Shown: positions 7,388-20,081 of the stretch, one piece after another
Position numbering within the stretch: position 1 is the first letter of the stretch
Layout of the letters: each line of letters begins with the position of its first letter
The notes under the pieces: model-generated
What the model was told of the DNA's origin: nothing
The model's input: only the letters and a program-made list of their open reading frames with translations
The model's database searches: none
Translations under genes and position numbers: made by a program
NCBI GenBank assembly: GCA_029846755.1
Contig: JARWBI010000004.1
Location: 1 to 64,000, forward strand
DNA from: Falsirhodobacter flavus
GTDB taxonomy: Bacteria > Pseudomonadota > Alphaproteobacteria > Rhodobacterales > Rhodobacteraceae
Direction: 5' to 3'
DNA length: 64,000 nucleotides

Positions 7388-7586
7388 TCAGTATTCTGCA
7401 TCTGCCAAGCAAATTTGCGCAAGCAGCGAATGACCGCATTGTCCCATCCTCGACCGCGCCCGCGCAGCCACAGATGACAGGGCGGTTTCGACGTTTGGAG
7501 CCCTTGAAAGCCATCCGTCGAAATCGTAGCGCGTAGTTCTGCAGTGCGGCAATCCGCTTGGCTATCTTCTTTGATTGCGGGGCGCT

Positions 7587-7727
7587 TCAGGCCTTCACGC
7601 GCTCGGACTTTGGATCGTAGAGCGGCACTAGGCTCGCTTCGGCGTCGACCATATGCCCTGCGATCTCGATTGTGTAGCGTGAGGCTAGCAACGCCTCGGC
7701 GCTTTCTCTTGGCTCCCGCAGCGACAC
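7587..7727 (-). pseudogene. C-terminal remnant resembling a GcvT-domain dehydrogenase
   Basis: On the minus strand an open frame of about 45 codons ends at 7587 with a protein-like tail containing [16 protein letters not shown] and [12 protein letters not shown]. This resembles the last residues of dimethylglycine/sarcosine dehydrogenase-type proteins, whose GcvT C-terminal domains often end in a YDPxxxRxRA pattern. No start or upstream domain is present; upstream, the DNA becomes the plus-strand ABC ATPase remnant. It reads as the severed 3' end of a gene. The family call is from memory of the motif and is tentative. Confidence 0.4.
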
Positions 7728-8218
7728 ACACCCACGACCAAAGCGAAGCGCTCGGCCTGAGCGACCGAATTATCGTTCTTAATAAGGGAAGTATCGCGCA
7801 GATCGGCACCCCGCGGGCGATCTACAACCAGCCAGAGAACGAATTTGTGGCCGATTTCGTAGGAACGACCAACCTGCTAGGCGTGGAGTTCGTCGAAAAG
7901 CGCGGCGCAGGGTGTCTCGTCCGATTGCCAAACCGCACGCTCGTGGAGGTAGGTTCGGCCTCCACCAACGTATCGGGAGCCGACCTAGTTATGTCTATAC
8001 GACCGGAGCGCATCCTCGTTGCCCTTGAGGGGGAGGTGCCGGAGAACCTGGTTCGAGGGTCCGTGACCGCGTCCGAGTTCCAGAGCGGAATGAACATCGT
8101 CACGGTCGATGTCGATGGCTCGCCCATTCAGGTGGAGACGCGTAGCAGCGTCAGTTCCGGTCCAATAACCCTCAGCTTCCCGAAAGAGGACGTTTTGATA
8201 TTGTCTAAATCAGCCTAG
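7728..8218 (+). pseudogene. Truncated ABC transporter ATPase (PotA/UgpC-like), C-terminal part only
   Basis: From about 7728 the plus strand encodes the end of an ABC ATPase: [20 protein letters not shown] is the H-loop and following region, then [20 protein letters not shown] and a TOBE-like domain with SIRPERILV. The Walker A, signature and Walker B motifs are missing, so the N-terminal two-thirds has been lost. The frame remains open upstream but the sequence stops resembling an ABC protein at about 7728. Such ATPases energise import of polyamines, sugars or iron. The fragment faces the dehydrogenase-like remnant head-on, marking a rearrangement junction. Confidence 0.75.
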
Positions 8219-8330: not shown

Positions 8331-8807
8331 ATGGGGCCTCGTATCGCGGCGGCACGCGAACTTCCGAGCTACCTCAACGAAATCTCGCTGCTCTTCATGG
8401 CTGGATTCATAGGAAGCAGCGAAGGCATTCTCGCAGCTACCATCGCGGCAGCCCACGGCCCGGACCTAACGTCCGTTCCGCCTTGGTTGATCCTCGTCCT
8501 GATGGTCTGGATCATCCCGCTGACGGGACAGCTCGGAATGAACCCGATCTTGGCCGTCTCGCTGATCGTGCCCCTTCTCCCCCAGCCTTCCGATATCGGG
8601 CTCCCGCCGACGGCACTCGTGGCCGCTATAACCGCCGGATGGGCTTTGAGCGGAACGACTTCGCCTTATACGGCATCCGTCCTGCTCGCGGCGAAGCTCG
8701 GAGGAGTGCCTCCCGCTAAGGCGGGATTGGGGTGGAACGGCGTTTACACCGTGGTCGCCGGGACGGCGATGACGGTCAGGGCGATAGCTCTCGTTTACCT
8801 GCTATAG
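8331..8807 (+). pseudogene. C-terminal fragment of a polytopic membrane permease
   Basis: The 158 codons encode about four hydrophobic helices, for example ISLLFMAGFIG and PPWLILVLMVWIIPLTGQL, plus a loop with ITAGWALSGTTSPYTASV. The content looks like the C-terminal half of a secondary transporter. The open frame continues upstream of the nominal ATG without a plausible start or ribosome-binding site, so the gene is probably truncated at its 5' end. Specific family not recognised. It lies between the ABC remnant and the Qat operon and supports the view that the defence operon was inserted into, or replaced, transporter genes. Confidence 0.55.
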
Positions 8808-8972: not shown

Positions 8973-10730
8973 ATGTGGTCCGATACCGAAAGCAGCATCG
9001 ATTATCTCAATTACTCGGAAGTCTCCGAGATGCTGGTCGACATTATTTCTGACGATGACATGCTTCCGACCTCGATCGGGGTTTACGGCAGCTGGGGGGT
9101 GGGAAAATCCAGCCTTCTCAGGCTGACCGGAATGGGCCTCCAAGACGAGAAGTATCTCGTCGTGGAATTTGATGCCTGGCTCTATCAGGATTTCGATGAA
9201 GCAAAATCGGCCCTGATGACGGTCATCGCGCAGCACCTTTACGATGCGACGCCCGAGGACAGAAAGGAGCAAGCTGCCAGCTTCTTCCGCCGCGTAAACA
9301 AGTTGAAGGCTATAGGCATTGCTCTGGATCTCGGAGCTCTCGCGATGGGGGTCCCGACCATGGGCGCGCTGACCAAAGGTGCCGGGGCCCTTCAAAACTT
9401 CTGGGCAGGGGACGGGGATGTGGAAGATTTCGCTGACGTCCGCAATGGAGCCGCAGAAGCTCAACAGCGGCTTGGCGGGCTGCTCTCCGAAAGGGAGCAG
9501 CGCAGTCCTCCGGCGGAAATCGCCGCGTTCAGAGAGGAATTCGCCGGACTGCTCAGAGCATTGGACCGCAGGCTCGTCGTGTTCGTCGACAATCTGGATC
9601 GGTGCCTGCCCGTGAACACCATCGCCACAATGGAGGCGATGCGCCTTTTCCTCTTCCTTCCGAAGACGGCGTTCGTTGTTGCGGCTGACGAGGACATGAT
9701 CCGCCACGCCGTGTCGAAGCATTTCGACGAGCCCGGCAGCCGGCACGTCACAGACTATTTGGACAAGCTCATCAACATCCCGGTTCGGGTGCCGAAACTC
9801 GGCTTGCAGGAGGTCCGCGCCTATCTGTTTATGTTGGCAGCCGTGAAAGCCAAAGCTGATGGCGACAAGGTGGAAGAGCTGCGACGCGCATTGATCGAGA
9901 AGCTTCGCAGGAGCTGGTCGAATGACGCGCCTGTCAAGGTGGAAGAAGTCAGTAAGATCTTGGGCATCCGTGTCGGCGATCCGCTGAGACGCACGCTAGA
10001 CACCATGGATACGATCGCGGGGCAACTCGCCTATGCCGAGCGCGTTCAGGGCAATCCCCGGATCGTAAAGCGGCTGCTGAATGTTATCCGGATGCGTTCG
10101 GCGGTCGCGACCCGTCGACGCATGCCTTTTGACGATGCTCTCATCGCGAAACTCGCGCTCTTCGAAAGATGCACAGACGGGGAGGCCATCAAAGCCTTTG
10201 GCCAGCTCGTCAATTCCTCCCAGAATGGGACCGTAACGAAGTTCGCGGAGCTGGAAGGCATTGCGGGAGAAGAAGATCTCGAGGCTCTGCTCCCGAAAGA
10301 ATGGGCGAAGCATAGGACATTCGTCGCCGACTGGCTGAAACTGAAACCCCCACTCACGGGAGTCGACCTGCGCGCCGCCGTCTATCTTTCCCGCGAGACT
10401 CTCCCCGTGAAGACCACAATGCGCGGTCTCAGTGCCGAAACTCTCGAGGCTATCGATGTCTTGCGAAAAACCGGATCCATGAAATCGCCCGCGTCGAAAG
10501 CTGCGCTGAAGAAGATCGATTTTCTGGATGCGGAGGACGCGATGGAAGAACTTTGCGCAGGCATGTCCAGGAACGCGGACTGGTCCAAGATCCGGCCGGA
10601 TTTCCGCGGCGCGGTCATGCTCGCAGGCGTATCGGGCGACGCTCACGCCAGGCTCGTCCGTTTTATTGAAAACCTACCGGATCGGCCGCCCTGGATGGCA
10701 GGTCTGATGAAGGGTCTTGAGGAGAACTAA
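8973..10730 (+). CDS. qatA: Qat anti-phage system KAP-family P-loop ATPase QatA
   Basis: A 585-residue KAP-family NTPase. Walker A is GVYGSWGVGKSS (near residues 37-48) and Walker B/arginine region is VVFVDNLDRC (around residue 204). Between them lies a hydrophobic stretch (about residues 112-142) like the membrane-associated insert of KAP ATPases. The start is taken at ATG 8973 (MWSDTESS), matching the N-terminus common in KAP proteins; a TTG six codons upstream is an alternative. It is the first gene of qatABCD, a described defence system in which all four genes were reported to matter. The biochemical role of QatA is not established. Confidence 0.93.
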   Translation: MWSDTESSIDYLNYSEVSEMLVDIISDDDMLPTSIGVYGSWGVGKSSLLRLTGMGLQDEKYLVVEFDAWLYQDFDEAKSALMTVIAQHLYDATPEDRKEQAASFFRRVNKLKAIGIALDLGALAMGVPTMGALTKGAGALQNFWAGDGDVEDFADVRNGAAEAQQRLGGLLSEREQRSPPAEIAAFREEFAGLLRALDRRLVVFVDNLDRCLPVNTIATMEAMRLFLFLPKTAFVVAADEDMIRHAVSKHFDEPGSRHVTDYLDKLINIPVRVPKLGLQEVRAYLFMLAAVKAKADGDKVEELRRALIEKLRRSWSNDAPVKVEEVSKILGIRVGDPLRRTLDTMDTIAGQLAYAERVQGNPRIVKRLLNVIRMRSAVATRRRMPFDDALIAKLALFERCTDGEAIKAFGQLVNSSQNGTVTKFAELEGIAGEEDLEALLPKEWAKHRTFVADWLKLKPPLTGVDLRAAVYLSRETLPVKTTMRGLSAETLEAIDVLRKTGSMKSPASKAALKKIDFLDAEDAMEELCAGMSRNADWSKIRPDFRGAVMLAGVSGDAHARLVRFIENLPDRPPWMAGLMKGLEEN

Positions 10731-10732
10731 GC

Positions 10733-11488
10733 TTGGGAACCTCCGCATCTTCCAAAGGCTCCGGTCCCGACCAGTCGCTCGTGCCGCCATGGGCAGACGA
10801 TAGTTCTGGCGAACCCCTTCCGGAACTGGAGCCGAAGAGATTCAGGGCCTTCAGACGATCCTTTGGCGTTTATCTCAAGTCCGGAAAGAAAGCCGATCTG
10901 GACAAGGCTCTCGGACATTATGCGCGTAGCGCGACGGGCGGGCGGGGAGTCGGGCCTCGCAGGTTCGGTGCCGTCTACACATCGGGCAGCGATCTCTACT
11001 CGGTGCTGTCCTCGCTCGGAGGAGATGGGGAGCTCGCCGAGGCGCGTGGCATCGAGAGGGATCAGCTTGCAGGCCAGGCCATTGATGTCGTGTGCCAGCG
11101 CCTGGCAGATGCCCTGGCGCCGCAGAATGGCGATGCCGACAAGATCAGGGAGGCGATGAACGAGGCGATGATCGAGGTTCTGGGGACGGCTGACTTCGAT
11201 CCCCATCGGCTTGATGAGGAGGCAGTCCAAAGGATCTTGGGGGAGTATCTCAGCCAAGCGGTCTTCCAGGAAATCGTGGAAGAGGTCGGCGGAACTTGGT
11301 CGCAGGCGGCAGCAAATGCCACCCCCGAGGCCGAAAGCCGCCTTCTCGAAACGATCCGCGCCGTCATCGAGGTAACTCTCGGTCCGCAACTCGACGGCCG
11401 GGCGAACGTTCCCCGCGCGGAGATACACCGGTTCATGCGAAAAACGCTCGACGATGTCTGGGCCATCTGGGAGGCTCATGGTGAGTAG
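10733..11488 (+). CDS. qatB: Qat anti-phage system protein QatB
   Basis: A 251-residue protein of unknown function in the QatB position. It begins at a TTG (10733) two bases after the qatA stop, preceded by AGGAG, and opens with MGTSASSKGSG...VPPWADD, a low-complexity Gly/Ser start and a VPPW element that fit QatB as I remember it. The remainder is soluble and mostly helical and acidic, with no catalytic motif that I can see. The coding end overlaps the qatC start. Assignment relies strongly on the operon: KAP ATPase before it, QueC-like and TatD-like genes after it. Confidence 0.9.
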   Translation: MGTSASSKGSGPDQSLVPPWADDSSGEPLPELEPKRFRAFRRSFGVYLKSGKKADLDKALGHYARSATGGRGVGPRRFGAVYTSGSDLYSVLSSLGGDGELAEARGIERDQLAGQAIDVVCQRLADALAPQNGDADKIREAMNEAMIEVLGTADFDPHRLDEEAVQRILGEYLSQAVFQEIVEEVGGTWSQAAANATPEAESRLLETIRAVIEVTLGPQLDGRANVPRAEIHRFMRKTLDDVWAIWEAHGE

Positions 11489-12797
11489 GCTCGTATTCCA
11501 TGTCGATGACACGACCTTGCCTCAAGCCCGGCAGGACGGTCGTCTGGATATCGTCCTCTACGGCCCGAAACCTGGCCGTCCTCTGACGGGCTCCGTGGGT
11601 AACCGTCTTCCCGCCGCGGTCTCGGCGCTCGGGATTCTTGTCGATGTCAAGGCGTTCGACTTCCTGACGATTGCCCTCGCGGTCATTGCGGCAGACACAT
11701 TCGTCGACCGACGTTCGAAATGGGCGAGCAGCGGCTGGACGCGCGAGTTCCATCTCGACATTCCTTTGGCCCAGCCCAGGAACTGGGAGCCGGTGGTCGG
11801 AAAGCTGGAACGCGCCCTGGGCTTCCTGAGCGGGGACCGGTGGACACTTTCACTTCGACCGGATGGTGTCGCCCCGCCGACGAGGGCCGCGATCGCCCGG
11901 CGGCGAACCCATATAAACATCGGCGCCGCCGATTGCGTTTCACTCTTCTCCGGCGGCCTCGACAGTTTCATTGGCGTAGGAAAGCTCGTCGCTCAGGGCC
12001 GAACGCCGCTCTTGGTGAGCCACGCCTATCGGGGAGACAAGAAATACCAGGAGCTTTCCGTGCCCCACTTGGGAAAGATACTGCCACGGTTCGCGGCCAA
12101 CGCCCACCCTGCGAAGACCGACGGCACACCGAACGACACGACGATGCGGACAAGGAGCTTCGGATTCCTGGCGTATGCCGCCGTGGCGGCGTCTGCCCTG
12201 CATGCGAAAGGCGGCGGGCATGGAAAAGTGCAAACATTCGTTCCCGAAAACGGGTTTATCGCGCTGAATGCGCCCCTGACGCGCAGGAGGATCGGTTCTC
12301 ACAGCACGCGCACGACGCACCCGCACTTCCTGACACTCATCCAGGAAATATTCGATCAGGTCGACATTCGCGTGTCGATCATCAACGAATTCCGCCACCA
12401 GACCAAAGGCGAGATGGTGGCGAAGGCTGTCGCGGCCGGTCGTGTCGACGGACTTACCGGAACGATGTCGTGCGGAAAGTGGAAACGGAAGAACATGCAC
12501 TGCGGGTATTGCGTGCCATGCCTGATCCGTCGTGCCTCCTTCTCGAAAGCGGGCGTAGTTGATGACACGCCCTACCGTTACGATCTGCAAAAGGCGTGGA
12601 GCGACGTCGACCTCCGGGACGATCTCCTTGCGATGGTGCTCGCCTCGACCGATAATGTGCGGGACGCTAGAATGCGTGCCGCCGCGAGCGGCCCGTTGCC
12701 TCTGGATCGCGGAGAGCGGGACGGATGGTTCGGTGTGCACGACCGCGGGCTGCGTGAGGTGGCAGACTATCTTCGCCGGGAAGGGATAAGAGCTTGA
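11478..12797 (+). CDS. qatC: Qat anti-phage system QueC-like protein QatC
   Basis: A 439-residue protein whose second half resembles QueC, the 7-cyano-7-deazaguanine synthase. The PP-loop ATP-pyrophosphatase motif SLFSGGLDSF lies near residues 156-165, and a four-cysteine zinc site (MSCGK...HCGYCVPC) at about residues 333-350. The N-terminal 150 residues are an extension absent from QueC. The start is ATG 11478 inside the end of qatB, with GGGAGG just upstream; the next codon, GTG, is an alternative. QatC suggests deazaguanine-type base or protein modification in defence, but the product of the Qat pathway is unknown. Its stop overlaps the qatD start (TTGA). Confidence 0.94.
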   Translation: MVSRLVFHVDDTTLPQARQDGRLDIVLYGPKPGRPLTGSVGNRLPAAVSALGILVDVKAFDFLTIALAVIAADTFVDRRSKWASSGWTREFHLDIPLAQPRNWEPVVGKLERALGFLSGDRWTLSLRPDGVAPPTRAAIARRRTHINIGAADCVSLFSGGLDSFIGVGKLVAQGRTPLLVSHAYRGDKKYQELSVPHLGKILPRFAANAHPAKTDGTPNDTTMRTRSFGFLAYAAVAASALHAKGGGHGKVQTFVPENGFIALNAPLTRRRIGSHSTRTTHPHFLTLIQEIFDQVDIRVSIINEFRHQTKGEMVAKAVAAGRVDGLTGTMSCGKWKRKNMHCGYCVPCLIRRASFSKAGVVDDTPYRYDLQKAWSDVDLRDDLLAMVLASTDNVRDARMRAAASGPLPLDRGERDGWFGVHDRGLREVADYLRREGIRA

Positions 12798-13585
12798 TCG
12801 ACTTCCACTGCCATCTCGATCTCTTCGCGAATCCGCAGGCGGCGGTCAGCGAGGTCGAGGCGGCGGGGATCTATCTTCTCTCGGTCACCACGACGCCGAA
12901 AGCGTATGCCGGAACGAAAGCCCTTTCCGCATCCTCGAAGCGGATCCGAACAGCATTGGGTTTGCACCCGCAGCTGGTCCGTGACCGTCATGGAGAGGTC
13001 GATCTCTTCTGCGAGCTGGTTGGCGGCACCTCCTATGTCGGCGAGGTGGGTCTGGATGGCAGCTCGGACCATGCCGGAAGTCTTCCGCTCCAGCGCGAAG
13101 TCCTGTCTCGTATATTGCGATCGTGCGCCGCGTCCGGCGGAAAGATCATGTCGCTTCACAGTCGACACGCCAGCGGCGAGTTGCTCGAACTCCTCCAGCG
13201 GCACCCCGGCTCTGGGATTCCCGTCTTCCACTGGTTCAGCGGACCCCTTGGGGATCTCGGCCGCGCCGTCGAGATGGGGGCCTGGTTCTCCGTGGGATTG
13301 CCGATGCTCCAAAGCGAGCGGGCAGGTGCACTCATCGCGCGGATCCCGCGGGATCGCCTCCTCACTGAAACGGATGCCCCCTTTGCGTCGACGAGGGATG
13401 GGCTGTATCCGACATCTGCGCTGCGAACCACAATGGCGGAGATCGCGAGACATTGGAAGTGCGATGCGGATGAAGTGCGCCGTGGGCTTCTGCGTAACCT
13501 AACGCGTCTCGCAGAAGAAAAGCGAAAGGGGGCTATAATCAAACGAACAATTGCCTCGCGCCGTGAGGCGACTTCCCTGTCTTGA
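12794..13585 (+). CDS. qatD: Qat anti-phage system TatD-family hydrolase QatD
   Basis: A 263-residue metal-dependent hydrolase of the TatD amidohydrolase superfamily. Metal-ligand motifs are all present: DFHCHLD at the N-terminus, GEVGLD near residue 80, LHSRH near 120, FHWFSG near 145 and ETDAP near 192. TatD proteins are metal-dependent DNases. The start is TTG 12794, overlapping the qatC stop, making this the second TTG start in the operon. The basic C-terminal tail (EEKRKGAIIKR) extends beyond the catalytic barrel. It closes the operon, and about 280 bp without a recognised gene follow. Confidence 0.94.
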   Translation: MIDFHCHLDLFANPQAAVSEVEAAGIYLLSVTTTPKAYAGTKALSASSKRIRTALGLHPQLVRDRHGEVDLFCELVGGTSYVGEVGLDGSSDHAGSLPLQREVLSRILRSCAASGGKIMSLHSRHASGELLELLQRHPGSGIPVFHWFSGPLGDLGRAVEMGAWFSVGLPMLQSERAGALIARIPRDRLLTETDAPFASTRDGLYPTSALRTTMAEIARHWKCDADEVRRGLLRNLTRLAEEKRKGAIIKRTIASRREATSLS

Positions 13586-13868: not shown

Positions 13869-14213
13869 TCAGGAAATGAGGAGCTCTTCGAGCGATTTAC
13901 CTTCCGCGAGATAAGATTTCACCCAGTCAGGCTGGCGCCCTCGTCCAGTCCAAGTTTTATTCATGTTTTCTGGATGCGCATATTTCGGCTCAGAAGTCTT
14001 CTTGACATCTTTCTGCTTTGATCCTGTTCCGATTCCGAAAAGATCGGCCGCGGAGAAGCCCAGTTCAGTGGCGCGAGCTTCGAGTTCTTCCTTCGCAGCT
14101 TTCCGAGCAACTGCCAAGGAATCTTTCAAGGCGCGGTCAAGGTCTCCTTGAAGCTGTATGAGCGTCGAGCGCTCGGCTTTAAGAAGTTCTTCATATGTCG
14201 GCATCTTGGCCAT
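13869..14213 (-). CDS. H-NS family nucleoid-associated protein
   Basis: A 114-residue protein with the H-NS family layout: an N-terminal helical oligomerisation region (residues 1-50, rich in Glu/Lys/Leu), a linker, and a C-terminal DNA-binding core TWTGRGRQPDWV followed by a short helix. The core motif is the AT-hook-like element of H-NS/HvrA proteins. The start is ATG 14213 with GGAGA upstream; an ATG three codons later is possible. It lies between the Qat operon and the tRNA-Gly insertion site and points leftward. H-NS proteins silence AT-rich acquired DNA, so it may be island-encoded or a resident regulator. Confidence 0.88.
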   Translation of the reverse strand: MAKMPTYEELLKAERSTLIQLQGDLDRALKDSLAVARKAAKEELEARATELGFSAADLFGIGTGSKQKDVKKTSEPKYAHPENMNKTWTGRGRQPDWVKSYLAEGKSLEELLIS

Positions 14214-14593: not shown

Positions 14594-14667
14594 GCGGGTG
14601 TAGCTCAATGGTAGAGCAGAAGCCTTCCAAGCTTATGACGAGGGTTCGATTCCCTTCACCCGCTCCA
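14594..14667 (+). tRNA. tRNA-Gly (anticodon UCC)
   Basis: A complete 74-nt tRNA with encoded CCA. The acceptor arms GCGGGTG and CACCCGC pair fully. The D arm is TAGCTCAATGGTAGAGC, the anticodon loop CTTCCAA gives anticodon TCC, and the T loop is TTCGATT. It decodes GGA and, by wobble, GGG. The gene is the apparent insertion site of the recombinase element to its right: a second tRNA-Gly 3' end occurs at 20783-20823. The 3' half overlaps, antisense, the end of the small coiled-coil gene. Confidence 0.96.
14625..14667 (+). repeat. Left attachment-like repeat (tRNA-Gly 3' half)
   Basis: The 3' half of the tRNA-Gly gene, starting TTCCAAGCT and ending CCCGCTCCA, is repeated imperfectly at 20783-20823. 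Shared blocks are TTCCAAGC, GGGTTCGATTCCC and CCCGCTCCA. It is interpreted as the tRNA-side junction of the integrated element. Confidence 0.6.
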
Positions 14668-15124
14668 ATGACGCCTCGTAGATGTGACTTACATTTTTTG
14701 CAGCACTCAGTTGTTGTTTTAAATTTTTAATTTCAAAATCTTGCGCAGCGATTATCTGCTCCAAAACGTATTTACGTCTATCGGTTTCACTCGCCGAAGT
14801 AGCAGCATCATCAAAGGTGGCAGGAGGAGGCTTCCGCTTGCCACACATGACTTTGAGTGCCTCAATTTCCGTGTCCAGTCGGTTCTTTACGTCTTTATAG
14901 TGCGCACTGGCCAGTGTGCTCCTAGACGCGATCCCGGCTCGCAATCTCACTTCCGCGACGGATATTCGATGCTTATACTGATTAATGCCGTCTTTTATTA
15001 TCCAGTTTTTTTGATCAAGAATTTCTTCTCGGTAACACTTTAACTCCGCTTCGATTCGCGAAATAGTTTGAGAAATTTTATCTCGCTTGACTTTATCGGT
15101 ATTTTGCAATGCGACACGCTCCAT
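14633..15124 (-). CDS. Small coiled-coil protein of the recombinase operon (TnpC-like position)
   Basis: A 163-residue charged protein predicted to be largely coiled coil, with heptad-like runs at residues 10-40 and near the C-terminus (IIAAQDFEIKNLKQQL). It starts at ATG 15124, one base after the stop of the 626-residue recombinase (TGATATG). In Tn554-like systems a small coiled-coil TnpC follows the recombinases and affects orientation of insertion; similarity here is by position and architecture only. The last codons, encoding VKGIEPSS, lie inside the tRNA-Gly gene on the opposite strand, so the C-terminus depends on the integration target. Confidence 0.65.
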   Translation of the reverse strand: MERVALQNTDKVKRDKISQTISRIEAELKCYREEILDQKNWIIKDGINQYKHRISVAEVRLRAGIASRSTLASAHYKDVKNRLDTEIEALKVMCGKRKPPPATFDDAATSASETDRRKYVLEQIIAAQDFEIKNLKQQLSAAKNVSHIYEASLERVKGIEPSS

Positions 15125-15125
15125 A

Positions 15126-17006
15126 TCAGCCTTCAAATCCAAGATCGGCGATCACGTCCGGATACCTCTTTCTATAACTTTCAATTTTGGTCTTGTAATA
15201 ATTATGCTGCAGGGATCCAGTGTCGACTGATTCCAACGCTTGCACAGCTTCTGCGACGTCCTTTCGAACAAAGTCGCGGAATTCTTCTGTTTGGATGTGC
15301 CAAGAACACAGCGCATCACACTTCGAGATGTCCTGCGGTTCACTTGCTTTGCAGCATACTCCTGATTTACCAAGGGGGCGGCAACATCTCACTAAGCCCG
15401 GCAGAATGTGTGCGATTTGAAACTCTTCGGCCGGCAAGGAGCTCATTACTGCCACCATGTCTTCGACGCTCGTGTTCGCTTGGCCCCTTTTGCCCGTCGC
15501 AGTCAAAACTGTCATATTTTGGATCCTCGCGGAAAAATCACGAAAAGAAGATGCACCAGCACCAGTGAGGCCTTCCCTGTTCTCCAAGGATTGTTGCAAA
15601 AGATATTCATTCTCTATCCGAGCAGCTTCCTCGAGTTCTGCTGCAAAGTTCGAGTCTGAACGAAAATATCCCAAAGTAACTTCTACATCTACATGTCCCA
15701 AGAGGCGTCGAAGGATCATAATTCCTCCCCGAAGTGCCAAAATAACTAAGCGAGCGAGAGTGGAGCGAAAGCGGTGATGCGAGAACTTCGATCCATCTTC
15801 CAACTGGATATTTCCCGCCCTCATAAACGCGTGAAGGTTCTTGTGGATCTGACGCATCGGTTTCGAAGAGTTTATTATTGACTCGTTCGACCTCCACAGG
15901 TGGGGGAAATCTTCCTTCTCGATCATTTCAATAAGGGCGACGTGTCTACTTAAGATGGAAGCAATGCCGTCGTTAAGTGGAACCTGCCGCAGCTGACCAG
16001 AAAAGCTCGGAGATCCCTTGAATATACGCATCTGCAACATTTTCGAGGCATCGTTCTGGTTTACGAGGCTTTTCTTCGACAGGGAACCGATCTCTGACCA
16101 CCGCGATCCTAACATTAGAGAAACGAGCGAAATGACAGATATCTGATAAATGTTTAGAAGGTGTTTTAGTTGACGAGCATTTCGGATCGAGTATTTTTGC
16201 GGCCAGTTTACTCTTTCGGCTATTGCTTGGATCTCAAGTCGCGAAAGTCTGGGGAAGGTCGGTGATAGGCGCGCTTCCGAGTAAAACGCCATGAGTGCAG
16301 GTTGCATATTGTCGATAATGTCGAAAGCAAAAGAAAAATAGGAATTCAGGAAGTTATCCGGGAGAGGTAGTGTCGGGTGAGTTTCCTTATCAATATCGGT
16401 ATTGATGACGGGAGGTGTGGAATGATCGTTGACCCGAAATAATCTGGTTCTGGGGGGTGGGGGGTAGCCGCGAAAATGCGCCGGACTGGCGGAATGCCAA
16501 GTGCGCATCAATCCATTGCACGTAGATATGGCGGCTTTTTGATTATCGCTGAGCGAAGATATTACCTCCTCCAGGTTGTCTAGGCTGAGTTCATGTATTG
16601 GTATGCCTTCTGCAATAGCATATTTTGAGAACGCACAATATATCGTATGATGGTTGCGTATCGTCGATAAAGCGAACGGTTCTTTGCTCCAGAACAATGT
16701 AAGGAACATCGCTTTGCGCGGAAATGTAAAAGAAGATTTGAATGTTGTGACGTATGAATGATGTAAGGTCGGAGGAGACATTTCAGGAAATTTAAGATTC
16801 AGTTTTCCCAGAGGAGTGGTGGTGTTCACTCCTACCCACCATGGAGGTAAGGTCCAAACCGGTGAGCCGGCCACCTGTTTCACGCCGTCCGTCGCGAATA
16901 GAGGTATCTTGAGAAATTGGTCGTCGCTATCAAATGCGGGAAAGCCAGGAACAGGTAGACCTAGCTTTGCTAAGTTAATTTTGCACTGTTCCTTCGCCGC
17001 TTTCAT
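15126..17006 (-). CDS. Tyrosine recombinase, third of trio (626 residues)
   Basis: A large tyrosine-recombinase-like protein. The C-terminal catalytic domain shows box I LGSRWSEI (Arg), box II HHRFRSTLARL (HxxR) and the final LLGHVDVEVTLGYF with His and nucleophilic Tyr, so all key residues appear present. After the catalytic domain is a cysteine-rich segment (VRCCRP, GVCCKA, CDALC) that may bind zinc. The first 350 residues have no motif I recognise and may contain DNA-binding helices. Its ATG overlaps the stop of the preceding recombinase gene (ATGA). It is expected to act with the other two recombinases in integration and excision. Confidence 0.85.
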   Translation of the reverse strand: MKAAKEQCKINLAKLGLPVPGFPAFDSDDQFLKIPLFATDGVKQVAGSPVWTLPPWWVGVNTTTPLGKLNLKFPEMSPPTLHHSYVTTFKSSFTFPRKAMFLTLFWSKEPFALSTIRNHHTIYCAFSKYAIAEGIPIHELSLDNLEEVISSLSDNQKAAISTCNGLMRTWHSASPAHFRGYPPPPRTRLFRVNDHSTPPVINTDIDKETHPTLPLPDNFLNSYFSFAFDIIDNMQPALMAFYSEARLSPTFPRLSRLEIQAIAERVNWPQKYSIRNARQLKHLLNIYQISVISLVSLMLGSRWSEIGSLSKKSLVNQNDASKMLQMRIFKGSPSFSGQLRQVPLNDGIASILSRHVALIEMIEKEDFPHLWRSNESIINSSKPMRQIHKNLHAFMRAGNIQLEDGSKFSHHRFRSTLARLVILALRGGIMILRRLLGHVDVEVTLGYFRSDSNFAAELEEAARIENEYLLQQSLENREGLTGAGASSFRDFSARIQNMTVLTATGKRGQANTSVEDMVAVMSSLPAEEFQIAHILPGLVRCCRPLGKSGVCCKASEPQDISKCDALCSWHIQTEEFRDFVRKDVAEAVQALESVDTGSLQHNYYKTKIESYRKRYPDVIADLGFEG

Positions 17007-18934
17007 AGGCCGCTCCCAACAGAGGTAAGTGGGACGATTGGAGGCATGGATTCGGCATCTACCTGCGACGCACGAACTAGGGGCGCAGAAAATTTGCTCA
17101 GAATGAACCTAACAATTTCGAGATCTATATAGAAGCGGCTTGCCACCCAGGCCGAAGCAGTGCTGGCCTCTTTGATTAGTAGTAAATCTGATTTTATACG
17201 TAAAAGGAAGGGTATCGATCTAGCGTCAGCAAACCACTTAGTGCATTCAAGACATCGCTGTGCACCGCAAATGTTGCCGGGGAGGTGATTTGGATCGCCC
17301 CCTCGATCAGGATCTTTGGGCGAAATGCATACGAGACCCTTCGCGGAACGCGGCAAGCTCTCAGGTCGCGGGATCCTCAGTCTCGTGCCGATTAGTTGCA
17401 TCTGCCTCAAATCCGAAACTATTCTTCCCTGAAGGTTGATCAAGTTCGTCGCGTCTTCTGCGAGTTGTAGCCTGTCGTCGATGTATCGAGTAAAACTTTT
17501 AAGCGTCTTATGTTGAAGGGACATCGCGGTGACTACCGGATTGTAGCTCGACTTCCGATAAGCAAACATTGCCCAAGTGTCTCGACACATCAGTAGGTCG
17601 AATTCGATCTTTCCGCCATCCTCCCGTTTGACGTCTAATGATTCCAGAACTGAATTGATGATAATATTCTCTCGAGTAAACCCGCCTCCGCCAACCGTCT
17701 CACTGCTAAAGTCTCTGATGTTTCCATAAGAATCCTGATATAACCAAACCAGTTTGGCGCGTTCGCGGTCGTGCTTCAGTCCGCTCTCTGCGGCTATACT
17801 TTCAAGTTGTCGTCTAAGTGGCTCTGTTTTGCTTATGACATGATTAATTATTTGGTAGGGGTCAAGGGGCTTGAAGCGGCAAGAAGACGACTTGAGTAAA
17901 TAAACCTTGCCTCTTTTGTAGGCTTGAATAATCACTTTCCTGTCTGGCTCGAGAATGCTGTCGGTATACCAGTTGGTAATGGACATCCTCGCCAATGCGT
18001 CTGGATTAAAGCCAGTTCTTAATGCGACTAGACCGAAAGGTATGGATATCTCCGATCGAGTATAGCTTATACAGCCTATATGGCGCGCAAGGGCTGTTGT
18101 GTTACTTGGCAAGAGTTCAGCAATTTCAAAATCCGGCGGTATGGATCCTGTCCGCATACCGTCCGATATCCTCGCTTTTTCCGCCTCGGTCCGATTGGGC
18201 TCGCTCGGAAACAAGTTCTTTGCTACCCATAGGCGATTTTCAAAGTGTGTCCATGTTCCGCCTGAATATCTGTTTGCGCCCGAGCTTCCGATTTGAGGGT
18301 TTGTCCCCCCATCTGCGATTTTGTTGCACCTCTCAAATCTAATTTTGATTTTTCTGTAGGTCTTTCCTAATGCCTTGAAGCAGTGAGACGCTTCTATAAG
18401 TGACAGGCTCTCTCCATCATAGGTATCTGGTGTGCTGCTAGAGAAAGCAGTGTATACTGAGAATTCTTTGGTGACTTCTAAGGGGCCGCGTCGTGCCTCA
18501 TCTAAATAGAAAGAACGCTCCAGAATGCGCTTCAGATTACTCGTAATTTGATATTTATACTCGTCGGTGCTTTCGAGTTGTCTCAAGTATAATATGTAAA
18601 GAGGCCACATTTCTTGAAGTGACCGCCAAAATTCGGTATCGTCGGGATCGCTTAAGCTTTGATTTCCGATTAGTAAGGAATTTATATCCAGAAAGCGCAA
18701 AAGACTGCTAATGGACGATTTTAGTTGCGAGCAATATGAAGAGGAGTTTCCGTGGCATAGCTCTCTAAGTGCCGGCATGATGAGCGCTAGGAATCTTGCC
18801 TTGGCAGCATAGCAGGTCTCTCCTGCGGTGAGCAGGGTTCCGAAATCCACTCGCCAAGGGGTAGATAGGTGAATACCTTGGCCCGTGACGAGGTATGTTT
18901 CATCGATCGGCATGAAGGGCCTCGGAGTATTCAT
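17003..18934 (-). CDS. Tyrosine recombinase-like protein, second of trio (643 residues)
   Basis: Size and position resemble Tn554 TnpB. The C-terminal part ends LQHKTLKSFTRYI, with the His and Tyr of the recombinase active site, but the region expected to contain HxxR reads LMCRDTWA, and the box I area reads RTGFNPDALARM without an obvious catalytic Arg in the usual place. The protein may therefore be degenerate at two catalytic positions. A Cys cluster (CGAQRCLECTKW) follows the catalytic domain. The start is ATG 18934, overlapping the upstream gene by 35 nt; ATG 18913 is an alternative. Confidence 0.8.
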   Translation of the reverse strand: MNTPRPFMPIDETYLVTGQGIHLSTPWRVDFGTLLTAGETCYAAKARFLALIMPALRELCHGNSSSYCSQLKSSISSLLRFLDINSLLIGNQSLSDPDDTEFWRSLQEMWPLYILYLRQLESTDEYKYQITSNLKRILERSFYLDEARRGPLEVTKEFSVYTAFSSSTPDTYDGESLSLIEASHCFKALGKTYRKIKIRFERCNKIADGGTNPQIGSSGANRYSGGTWTHFENRLWVAKNLFPSEPNRTEAEKARISDGMRTGSIPPDFEIAELLPSNTTALARHIGCISYTRSEISIPFGLVALRTGFNPDALARMSITNWYTDSILEPDRKVIIQAYKRGKVYLLKSSSCRFKPLDPYQIINHVISKTEPLRRQLESIAAESGLKHDRERAKLVWLYQDSYGNIRDFSSETVGGGGFTRENIIINSVLESLDVKREDGGKIEFDLLMCRDTWAMFAYRKSSYNPVVTAMSLQHKTLKSFTRYIDDRLQLAEDATNLINLQGRIVSDLRQMQLIGTRLRIPRPESLPRSAKGLVCISPKDPDRGGDPNHLPGNICGAQRCLECTKWFADARSIPFLLRIKSDLLLIKEASTASAWVASRFYIDLEIVRFILSKFSAPLVRASQVDAESMPPIVPLTSVGSGL

Positions 18935-20081
18935 TCGAATAGTCGGCTAGCCAAAGGGTGGAAAGTCCCTGAACGTATCGAAATGTCGTGTCAATATGTG
19001 CATGCCCGAGATATTCTTGAAGTAATGCGAGAGGTGCAGATAGGTAGAGTTCTCCTTCACGAGACGTCCAATGCTCGTGTCTTGCGGGGTGATCTCTCCA
19101 TTTCCTCAATAGATAGTGCACGGCAAAGTGGTGGCGGAGGATGTGAGGGGTGATCCCTGCGCGGCCGGAACTTGCGCAATTTATTGCAAACTTCTTCTGC
19201 AAGGTCCTGGCATTCACGGGACTGGCCTTTTCTCCAAATCCGAGAATTAAGTGCGCAGGATTGATGTTGATACCTCGGAGCGCGATTGCCCTATCAATGT
19301 TTCGGTAGTTGTCGACGTCTTGCAGCAACCAAAGGGGGATTGGAACGAAACGGGTTTTGCCTCCTTTTCCGACAATTTTCAACTTTGGGACAGATCGTGT
19401 TAACGTGACCTCCGCAACGGTTGGAAAGGTGGATTCTTGTAAAGATATCGCCTCTGATAATCTGGCGCCGACGCCATACATAACCTTTGCGGCGATTATT
19501 GCCGATGGATCCTCGAATTCTGAGATGAAAGCGAAGATCTGATCTTCGCTATACCATCGGGTAATTTCCTTTGGATTTCTGCGGCCCGCCGCAACAGGTG
19601 CTCCACGGCTACGGGTGCGTTTTGGGGAGGGCTTTCGAGCAATGTGGAGGGCCGTTCTATAGCCTGCGGAGATACAAAATTCTAAGAAGTCCACGACGCC
19701 GAGAATATACTGATTAGCTGATGACGCTCCAACTATCTTCATTAAGTCGCTGTGGTAGTCGAATAGATCGTCTTGGGAGTGAGATTGAATTGTGATGTTA
19801 CGTTCAATCATCCAGCGTCTGTGAGCATTCAATTGATATGCTCTGTTCTTCATAAATACTGTTGACGGCCGATTGACTTCTTTGCCCTCCAGCCGTGCGT
19901 TCCGCGAGCTTTTTCTTACCTCTGGTGCCCAGTTTCCGACAGCGCGATGATATAGATATTGGTTTATCTCGGAGGCGGGATTTCCTTCGTCGTCAAGTAT
20001 GAATGGGATGCCAACAAGATTTTCTGGAATTCCGGCTGCCACGCCAAAACTGTCAAAGAAAAACAAGTTTCTCTGCGGCAT
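18900..20081 (-). CDS. Tyrosine recombinase, first of trio (393 residues)
   Basis: A typical-length tyrosine site-specific recombinase, about the size of Tn554 TnpA. The N-terminal SAM-like core-binding domain covers roughly residues 80-160. The catalytic domain has YGVGARLSEAISL (box I Arg), TPHILRHHFAVHYL (HxLRH) and LLQEYLGHAHIDTTFRYV with the LGH and Tyr motifs, all intact. The ATG at 20081 has GAGG about 7 nt upstream and begins the leftward four-gene operon. The adjacent 745-bp non-coding stretch should contain its promoter. This is the member most likely to be catalytically competent on its own. Confidence 0.92.
   Translation of the reverse strand: MPQRNLFFFDSFGVAAGIPENLVGIPFILDDEGNPASEINQYLYHRAVGNWAPEVRKSSRNARLEGKEVNRPSTVFMKNRAYQLNAHRRWMIERNITIQSHSQDDLFDYHSDLMKIVGASSANQYILGVVDFLEFCISAGYRTALHIARKPSPKRTRSRGAPVAAGRRNPKEITRWYSEDQIFAFISEFEDPSAIIAAKVMYGVGARLSEAISLQESTFPTVAEVTLTRSVPKLKIVGKGGKTRFVPIPLWLLQDVDNYRNIDRAIALRGININPAHLILGFGEKASPVNARTLQKKFAINCASSGRAGITPHILRHHFAVHYLLRKWRDHPARHEHWTSREGELYLSAPLALLQEYLGHAHIDTTFRYVQGLSTLWLADYSNEYSEALHADR

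Follow-up and report, generated by a model that had tools for sequence, protein, structure and literature searches.

The qat locus of Falsirhodobacter flavus

Four consecutive genes on the forward strand of contig JARWBI010000004.1 of Falsirhodobacter flavus (assembly GCA_029846755.1) were analyzed within a window comprising positions 1–64,000 of the contig. A sequence-only reading had described them as a complete Qat (qatABCD) anti-phage defence operon at 8973–13585. All four open reading frames (ORFs) were recovered at these coordinates without correction. The PADLOC check proposed by that reading matched all four Qat proteins, including QatB and QatC, for which a lack of hidden Markov model (HMM) matches was to count against the prediction. 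The genes are as follows (aa, amino acids; HMM and structure matches as E-values or bits):

qatA: 8973–10730, forward strand, ATG start, 585 aa, KAP-family P-loop NTPase; PADLOC QatA 4.7e-192, Pfam KAP_NTPase 2.5e-49, NCBIfam QatA 379 bits (cut-off 600)
qatB: 10733–11488, forward strand, TTG start, 251 aa, N-terminus MGTSASSKGSG...VPPWAD, proposed protein substrate; PADLOC QatB 3.7e-57, NCBIfam QatB 74 bits (cut-off 100), PDB QatB 9zee 2.6e-9
qatC: 11478–12797, forward strand, ATG start, 439 aa, QueC-like PP-loop ATPase with a zinc site; PADLOC QatC 8.8e-107, NCBIfam QatC 360 bits (cut-off 280), PDB 9vlk 3.2e-53 and 9zee 3.7e-51
qatD: 12794–13585, forward strand, TTG start, 263 aa, TatD-type metal-dependent hydrolase; PADLOC QatD 4.5e-83, NCBIfam QatD 297 bits (cut-off 230), Pfam TatD_DNase 8.1e-39, PDB 9xsn 1.5e-60

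The completeness of the operon is thus borne out by two HMM libraries (PADLOC and NCBIfam), together with gene order, gene junctions and the comparable loci described below. Pfam identified KAP_NTPase, QueC and TatD_DNase in QatA, QatC and QatD, respectively; no Pfam match was obtained for QatB. The intact motifs and tight junctions noted earlier were also confirmed: all frames are open, the qatA stop and the qatB start are separated by 2 nucleotides (nt), and overlaps of 11 nt and 4 nt join qatB to qatC and qatC to qatD. A GAGGAG sequence lies about 8 nt 5' of the qatB TTG. The qatC start, not given previously, was placed at 11478; a longer frame from the ORF lister, starting at 11454, was rejected because its 8 extra codons are not conserved. 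The qatA start at 8973 coincides exactly with the onset of DNA similarity to the operon of Paracoccus fontiphilus.

Walker A and B motifs were seen in QatA, while QatC carries SGGLDS, CX9CGYCVPC, STRTTHP and RTRSFGF (RxRxxxF), and QatD carries HxH, GEVG, HWF and TDAP. Read from the TTG at 10733, QatB is MGTSASSKGSGPDQSLVPPWAD and contains both the N-terminal MGTS and the PPW segment.

Conservation of the operon among relatives

To assess the operon across genomes, a set of 88 loci was compiled from the best 80 of 576 confirmed genome-contig loci and 8 plasmid loci, in which L036 and L068 are one record. All four Qat proteins were matched by tblastn in the same order in 81 of the 88 loci, in agreement with the proposed gene order. 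QatA was missing in L078, L088, L093 and L108, QatB in L078 and L093, and QatD in L049, L056, L059 and L078, some of these loci being cut by contig ends. The MGTS start of QatB was found in 84 of the 88 loci and not in L055, L078, L093 or L105. In QatC, TRTxHP is present at all 88 loci and Y/FPD[CQ] at none, with SGGxDS and the zinc pattern each retained in 87. Beyond this set, a tblastn search with QatC returned 128 plasmid records, 92 of them covering at least 80% of the query, and partial matches in two Listeria phage records. A plasmid of Deinococcus radiodurans also carries qatC, and more distant matches came from Rhodococcus and Arthrobacter plasmids. Within the window's own family, QatC exceeded the NCBIfam cut-off in 2 of 198 genomes, namely the genome studied here and G189.

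The nearest relative among the 88 loci is that of P. fontiphilus MVW-1 (L069), with identities of 83, 91, 84 and 78% for QatA to QatD. It shares the four genes, their order and the TTG start of qatD, but its qatB begins with ATG, its surroundings are unrelated, and DNA similarity is limited to 8973–13524; such a difference in surroundings fits a mobile defence cassette. The ratios of nonsynonymous to synonymous substitution rates (dN/dS) between the two operons were 0.059, 0.042, 0.079 and 0.065 for qatA to qatD, indicating purifying selection. These values, together with the open frames and intact motifs, make it very improbable that the operon is unexpressed or degenerate in this strain, merely carried along from an old insertion, as the remnants on its left flank (7544–8218 and 8331–8807) might suggest.

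Several atypical loci were also recorded. In three Pseudomonas loci (L049, L056 and L059) qatABC is present, but the roughly 5 kb that follow contain no detected qatD. At L078 the qatC gene stands alone: neither QatA nor QatB was matched in the 5 kb upstream, and the contig end cuts the downstream side. In G076 (L010/L031), a qatC-like gene occupies two frames of a 12-kb contig and is apparently broken or affected by a sequencing error.

Comparison with the published Qat mechanism

In Pseudomonas aeruginosa, a 1:1 complex of QatB with QatC is sufficient against phage lambda-vir (PMC13279940). The N-terminal tail of QatB is disordered and begins with MGTS, and G2D or deletion of residues 16–22 abolishes defence; QatC requires SGGxDS and T278/T280, which occupy the place of the Tyr/Asp that bind the nucleobase in QueC and Cap9; QatA binds DNA, and QatA and QatD affect phage range (PMC13279940). 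QatC does not substitute for QueC in Escherichia coli; its active site is remodelled, and protein carboxydeazaguanylation has been proposed for it (PMC13329287). The mechanism had been called poorly defined in the sequence-only reading. This still holds for the reaction, but no longer for the functional unit, since QatBC is the minimal unit and the QatB glycine is essential (PMC13279940, 2026).

All residues required in P. aeruginosa QatB and QatC are present in the window copy: T277/T279 of its QatC align with T278/T280, and the protein aligns with both solved QatC structures, STRTTHP included. Compared with the P. aeruginosa and E. coli systems (9zee/9zef and 9vlk/9vll; species according to PMC13279940), it shares MGTS, SGGxDS, the threonine pair and the zinc site. 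Phage defence has been demonstrated for those systems. Matches to the solved QatBC structures reach only E-values of about 1e-51 to 1e-53 for QatC and 1e-8 to 1e-9 for QatB, which places the window Qat in a subgroup distant from them. The zinc cysteines are spaced CX9C, shorter than the approximately CX19C reported in PMC13329287, and the P(x)4TK motif of that source reads E(x)4TK.

The window locus is one more intact member of an alphaproteobacterial Qat subgroup and an ordinary copy of a known system, and we infer that it works like P. aeruginosa Qat. By homology, QatC would bind ATP and, at a 1:1 ratio, QatB. Removal of the initiator methionine of QatB would expose its N-terminal glycine, to which the QueC-type PP-loop active site of QatC would attach a group. 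QatBC would form the core of the defence, with QatA, as a DNA-binding KAP NTPase, and QatD, as a TatD-like hydrolase, widening or regulating the phage range. That the four genes make up a complete qatABCD operon for phage defence, with QatC by homology modifying the QatB glycine, is, in our view, almost certain. Two observations weigh against it. First, QatA and QatB fall below their NCBIfam cut-offs, which only QatC and QatD pass. These two cut-offs look strict for this subgroup, since the PLSDB annotations of three further Qat operons follow the same pattern, with qatC and qatD named and the A and B genes left generic. Second, a PADLOC scan of 13 neighbouring proteins detected no additional defence system, so that the setting is no evident defence island; the sole weak match, IetS (3.5e-4), came from an ABC-transporter fragment.

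The start codons were considered separately. Both qatB and qatD do begin with TTG, but the suggestion that this sets protein ratios was not supported. Among the 84 relatives with an MGTS start, qatB begins with ATG in 73, GTG in 10 and TTG in one, and the nearest relative uses ATG; TTG as a ratio device for qatB was consequently rejected. The sole relative with a TTG qatB (L088) has a QatC without SGGxDS. For qatD, the 84 loci with QatD gave ATG in 25, TTG in 21 and GTG in 12, with 26 not resolved, TTG being commoner here than at qatB. The qatB TTG opens the MGTS motif, whose glycine is the one essential in P. aeruginosa. In L034, L035 and L038 qatB is annotated from a position downstream of the MGTS codon, in agreement with the report that QatB starts are often misannotated (PMC13279940).

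Two assignments within the QueC-like enzymes were examined and rejected. Type IV CBASS (cyclic oligonucleotide-based anti-phage signalling system), in which Cap9 conjugates a deazaguanine (PMC11996544), likewise pairs a QueC-like enzyme with a partner bearing an N-terminal glycine, the CD-NTase (PMC13279940; PMC11996544). The window differs in lacking Cap10 and, among the proteins scanned with PADLOC, a CD-NTase. Its QatC has Thr/Thr for Tyr/Asp, with STRTTHP replacing Y/FPD, as well as extra N- and C-terminal parts relative to Cap9. Canonical QueC, a preQ0 synthase of about 230 aa with a YPD motif encoded in a que operon, does not fit either: the window QatC has 439 aa, lacks YPD and stands in a qat context, and in this genome the true QueC maps elsewhere, to C33:27689.

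Queuosine-pathway genes in Qat-bearing genomes

The current model of QatC borrows the deazaguanylation of CBASS, with 7-carboxy-7-deazaguanine (CDG), the product of QueE (PMC13329287) and a substrate of QueC, as the nucleobase. Under this model, QatC would activate CDG with ATP and join it to the glycine of QatB, the reaction that Cap9 carries out on the CD-NTase. The fold, SGGxDS, the zinc site and the glycine-ended partner are common to both systems (PMC13279940, PMC13329287). In the host of the window, canonical QueC and QueE genes also adjoin each other (C33:27689–28945), so that CDG should be made in it. However, QatBC crystals grown with CDG did not show the nucleobase, and the activity could not be reconstituted (PMC13279940). 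The same paper poses the question of which reaction QatC catalyzes. The following comparison bears on that question.

QueE and QueC were mapped in the genomes of 77 of the 80 genome-contig Qat loci (L066, L077 and L115 were left out). The QueE profile, built from a 14-sequence alignment, separated two groups, full-length matches of at least 112 bits and partial ones of at most 52 bits. Full-length QueE was found in 56 of the 77 genomes (TIGR04508 alone gave 36 of 48), and QueC exceeded its cut-off in 61 (38 of 48 plus 23 of 29). Neither was detectable in 15 genomes (G198, G199, G201, G202, G204, G221, G228, G232, G242, G246, G250, G252, G255, G272 and G274), counting as absent a 41-bit QueE-like frame without CxxxCxxC in G228 and a 78-bit QueC-like match below the cut-off in G274. 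The genomes are drafts, and absence here refers to QueE and QueC. Six of the 15 are metagenome-assembled or "uncultured" by title. The nine not so labelled are Pseudorhodobacter aquimaris, Aminobacter ciceronei, Aureimonas sp. AU4, Celeribacter neptunius, P. fontiphilus, Snodgrassella sp. CFCC 13594, Salipiger aestuarii, Palleronia pelagia and Thioalkalivibrio sp. HK1; the nearest relative of the window operon therefore resides in a genome that, unlike that of the window, has neither gene detected. The complete set of qatA to qatD with MGTS is present in 13 of the 15, the remaining two loci being L093, cut by a contig end, and the lone qatC of L078. Qat thus occurs in natural hosts apparently unable to make CDG. 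All 15 genomes have tgt, and may therefore import a queuosine precursor.

Within the window's family, QueE was detected in 17 of 198 genomes (at most 14 candidates per genome scored); it is absent from G189, the second Qat genome of the family, which is 99% complete. Among ten Qat carriers of Rhodobacterales genera, including G000 and G189, two have QueE, the genera being assigned from titles, with two checked; in this order there is thus no indication that Qat requires QueE. A literature search on the loss of the queuosine pathway in Rhodobacterales found no paper. For the one pair tested in which both hosts lack QueC and QueE, Palleronia pelagia and an uncultured Rhodobacteraceae isolate, dN/dS was 0.13, 0.07, 0.14 and 0.13 for qatA to qatD, indicating purifying selection and hence that these Qat genes are kept functional.

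The persistence of Qat without QueE and QueC, together with the uniform replacement of the base-binding residues of QueC and Cap9, points to a different donor. The absence of both genes and the threonines in 88 of 88 QatC proteins disfavour CDG, although salvage is possible, and suggest that the key enzyme of Qat may not use the small molecule of its best-studied cousins. QatC would then not deazaguanylate, but would couple the QatB glycine, driven by ATP, to another donor independent of the queuosine pathway, an unknown protein modification. Several results weigh against this, namely the majority of Qat genomes with full-length QueE, the six of 77 with QueC over the cut-off but no full-length QueE (G207, G210, G219, G229, G230 and G263), and the outcome of the control described below. 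As the QueE of G230 is cut by a contig end, some QueE misses reflect assembly gaps or divergent genes. Given such misses and the failed control, we put the chances of the CDG-independent reaction at about even. CBASS-type deazaguanylation by QatC is possible, but we lean against it, and we consider a source other than host-made CDG for the group on QatB more probable than not.

Control with other QueC-like groups

As a control, Cap9 of type IV CBASS was sought with the PADLOC QueC model in 398 genomes of the phylum. The first four matches opened (L138, L139, L140 and L145) proved not to be CBASS; they belong to an operon encoding a TIR-like/TGT-like protein, an Ogg-HhH glycosylase, a Cap9-like QueC and a ThsB-type TIR protein starting with MGGGG(G). 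Its carriers are G345 (L138), G656 (L139/L188), G420 (L140) and G288 (L145/L190). The accessory set is the same as in type IV CBASS, with the glycine-started TIR protein in place of the CD-NTase, and the QueC-like enzymes keep an FPDQ-type motif. Full-length QueE was nevertheless absent in three of the four genomes (G656, G345 and G420, the last 74% complete) and present in G288. The control therefore cannot separate QatC from Cap9-like enzymes, which weakens the argument for independence from CDG. Either the TIR systems do without host CDG, or CDG is salvaged, or QueE was missed. Possibly, the TIR operon represents an undescribed defence system based on N-terminal glycine modification; a search of the available literature found no paper.

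A search for additional operons of this kind in 394 family genomes gave 20 matches; of seven opened, six were PfkB-linked QueC-like genes and one a canonical QueC. A QueC-like gene follows a PfkB-like gene in L136, L168–L172 and L177, an arrangement that fits cluster 4 as described in PMC13329287. The six tested family genomes with a PfkB-linked QueC-like gene have no full-length QueE.

Genomic setting

On the left flank of qat, genes for a LysR regulator, a CitMHS transporter and a CoA-transferase are followed by remnants. The features adjoining the operon are:

7544–8218: ABC-ATPase remnant, its matches confined to the C-terminal part of ATPases of polyamine/phosphonate-type ABC transporters
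8331–8807: remnant with no match in three libraries
13869–14213, reverse strand: H-NS-type gene
14594–14667: tRNA-Gly
14633–15142, reverse strand: 169-aa frame overlapping tRNA-Gly
15126–17006, reverse strand: tyrosine-recombinase-like gene
between the two recombinase-like genes: 643-aa gene with no family match
18900–20081, reverse strand: tyrosine-recombinase-like gene

The window contains a single copy of the terminal 28 nt of tRNA-Gly, no attachment repeat was found there, and no homology to the recombinase genes was detected in the 88 qat loci at an E-value of 1e-3. The G+C content of qat is 0.61 versus 0.48 in the recombinase block (15126–20081); qat therefore need not belong to this block, to the right of which ordinary metabolic genes follow.

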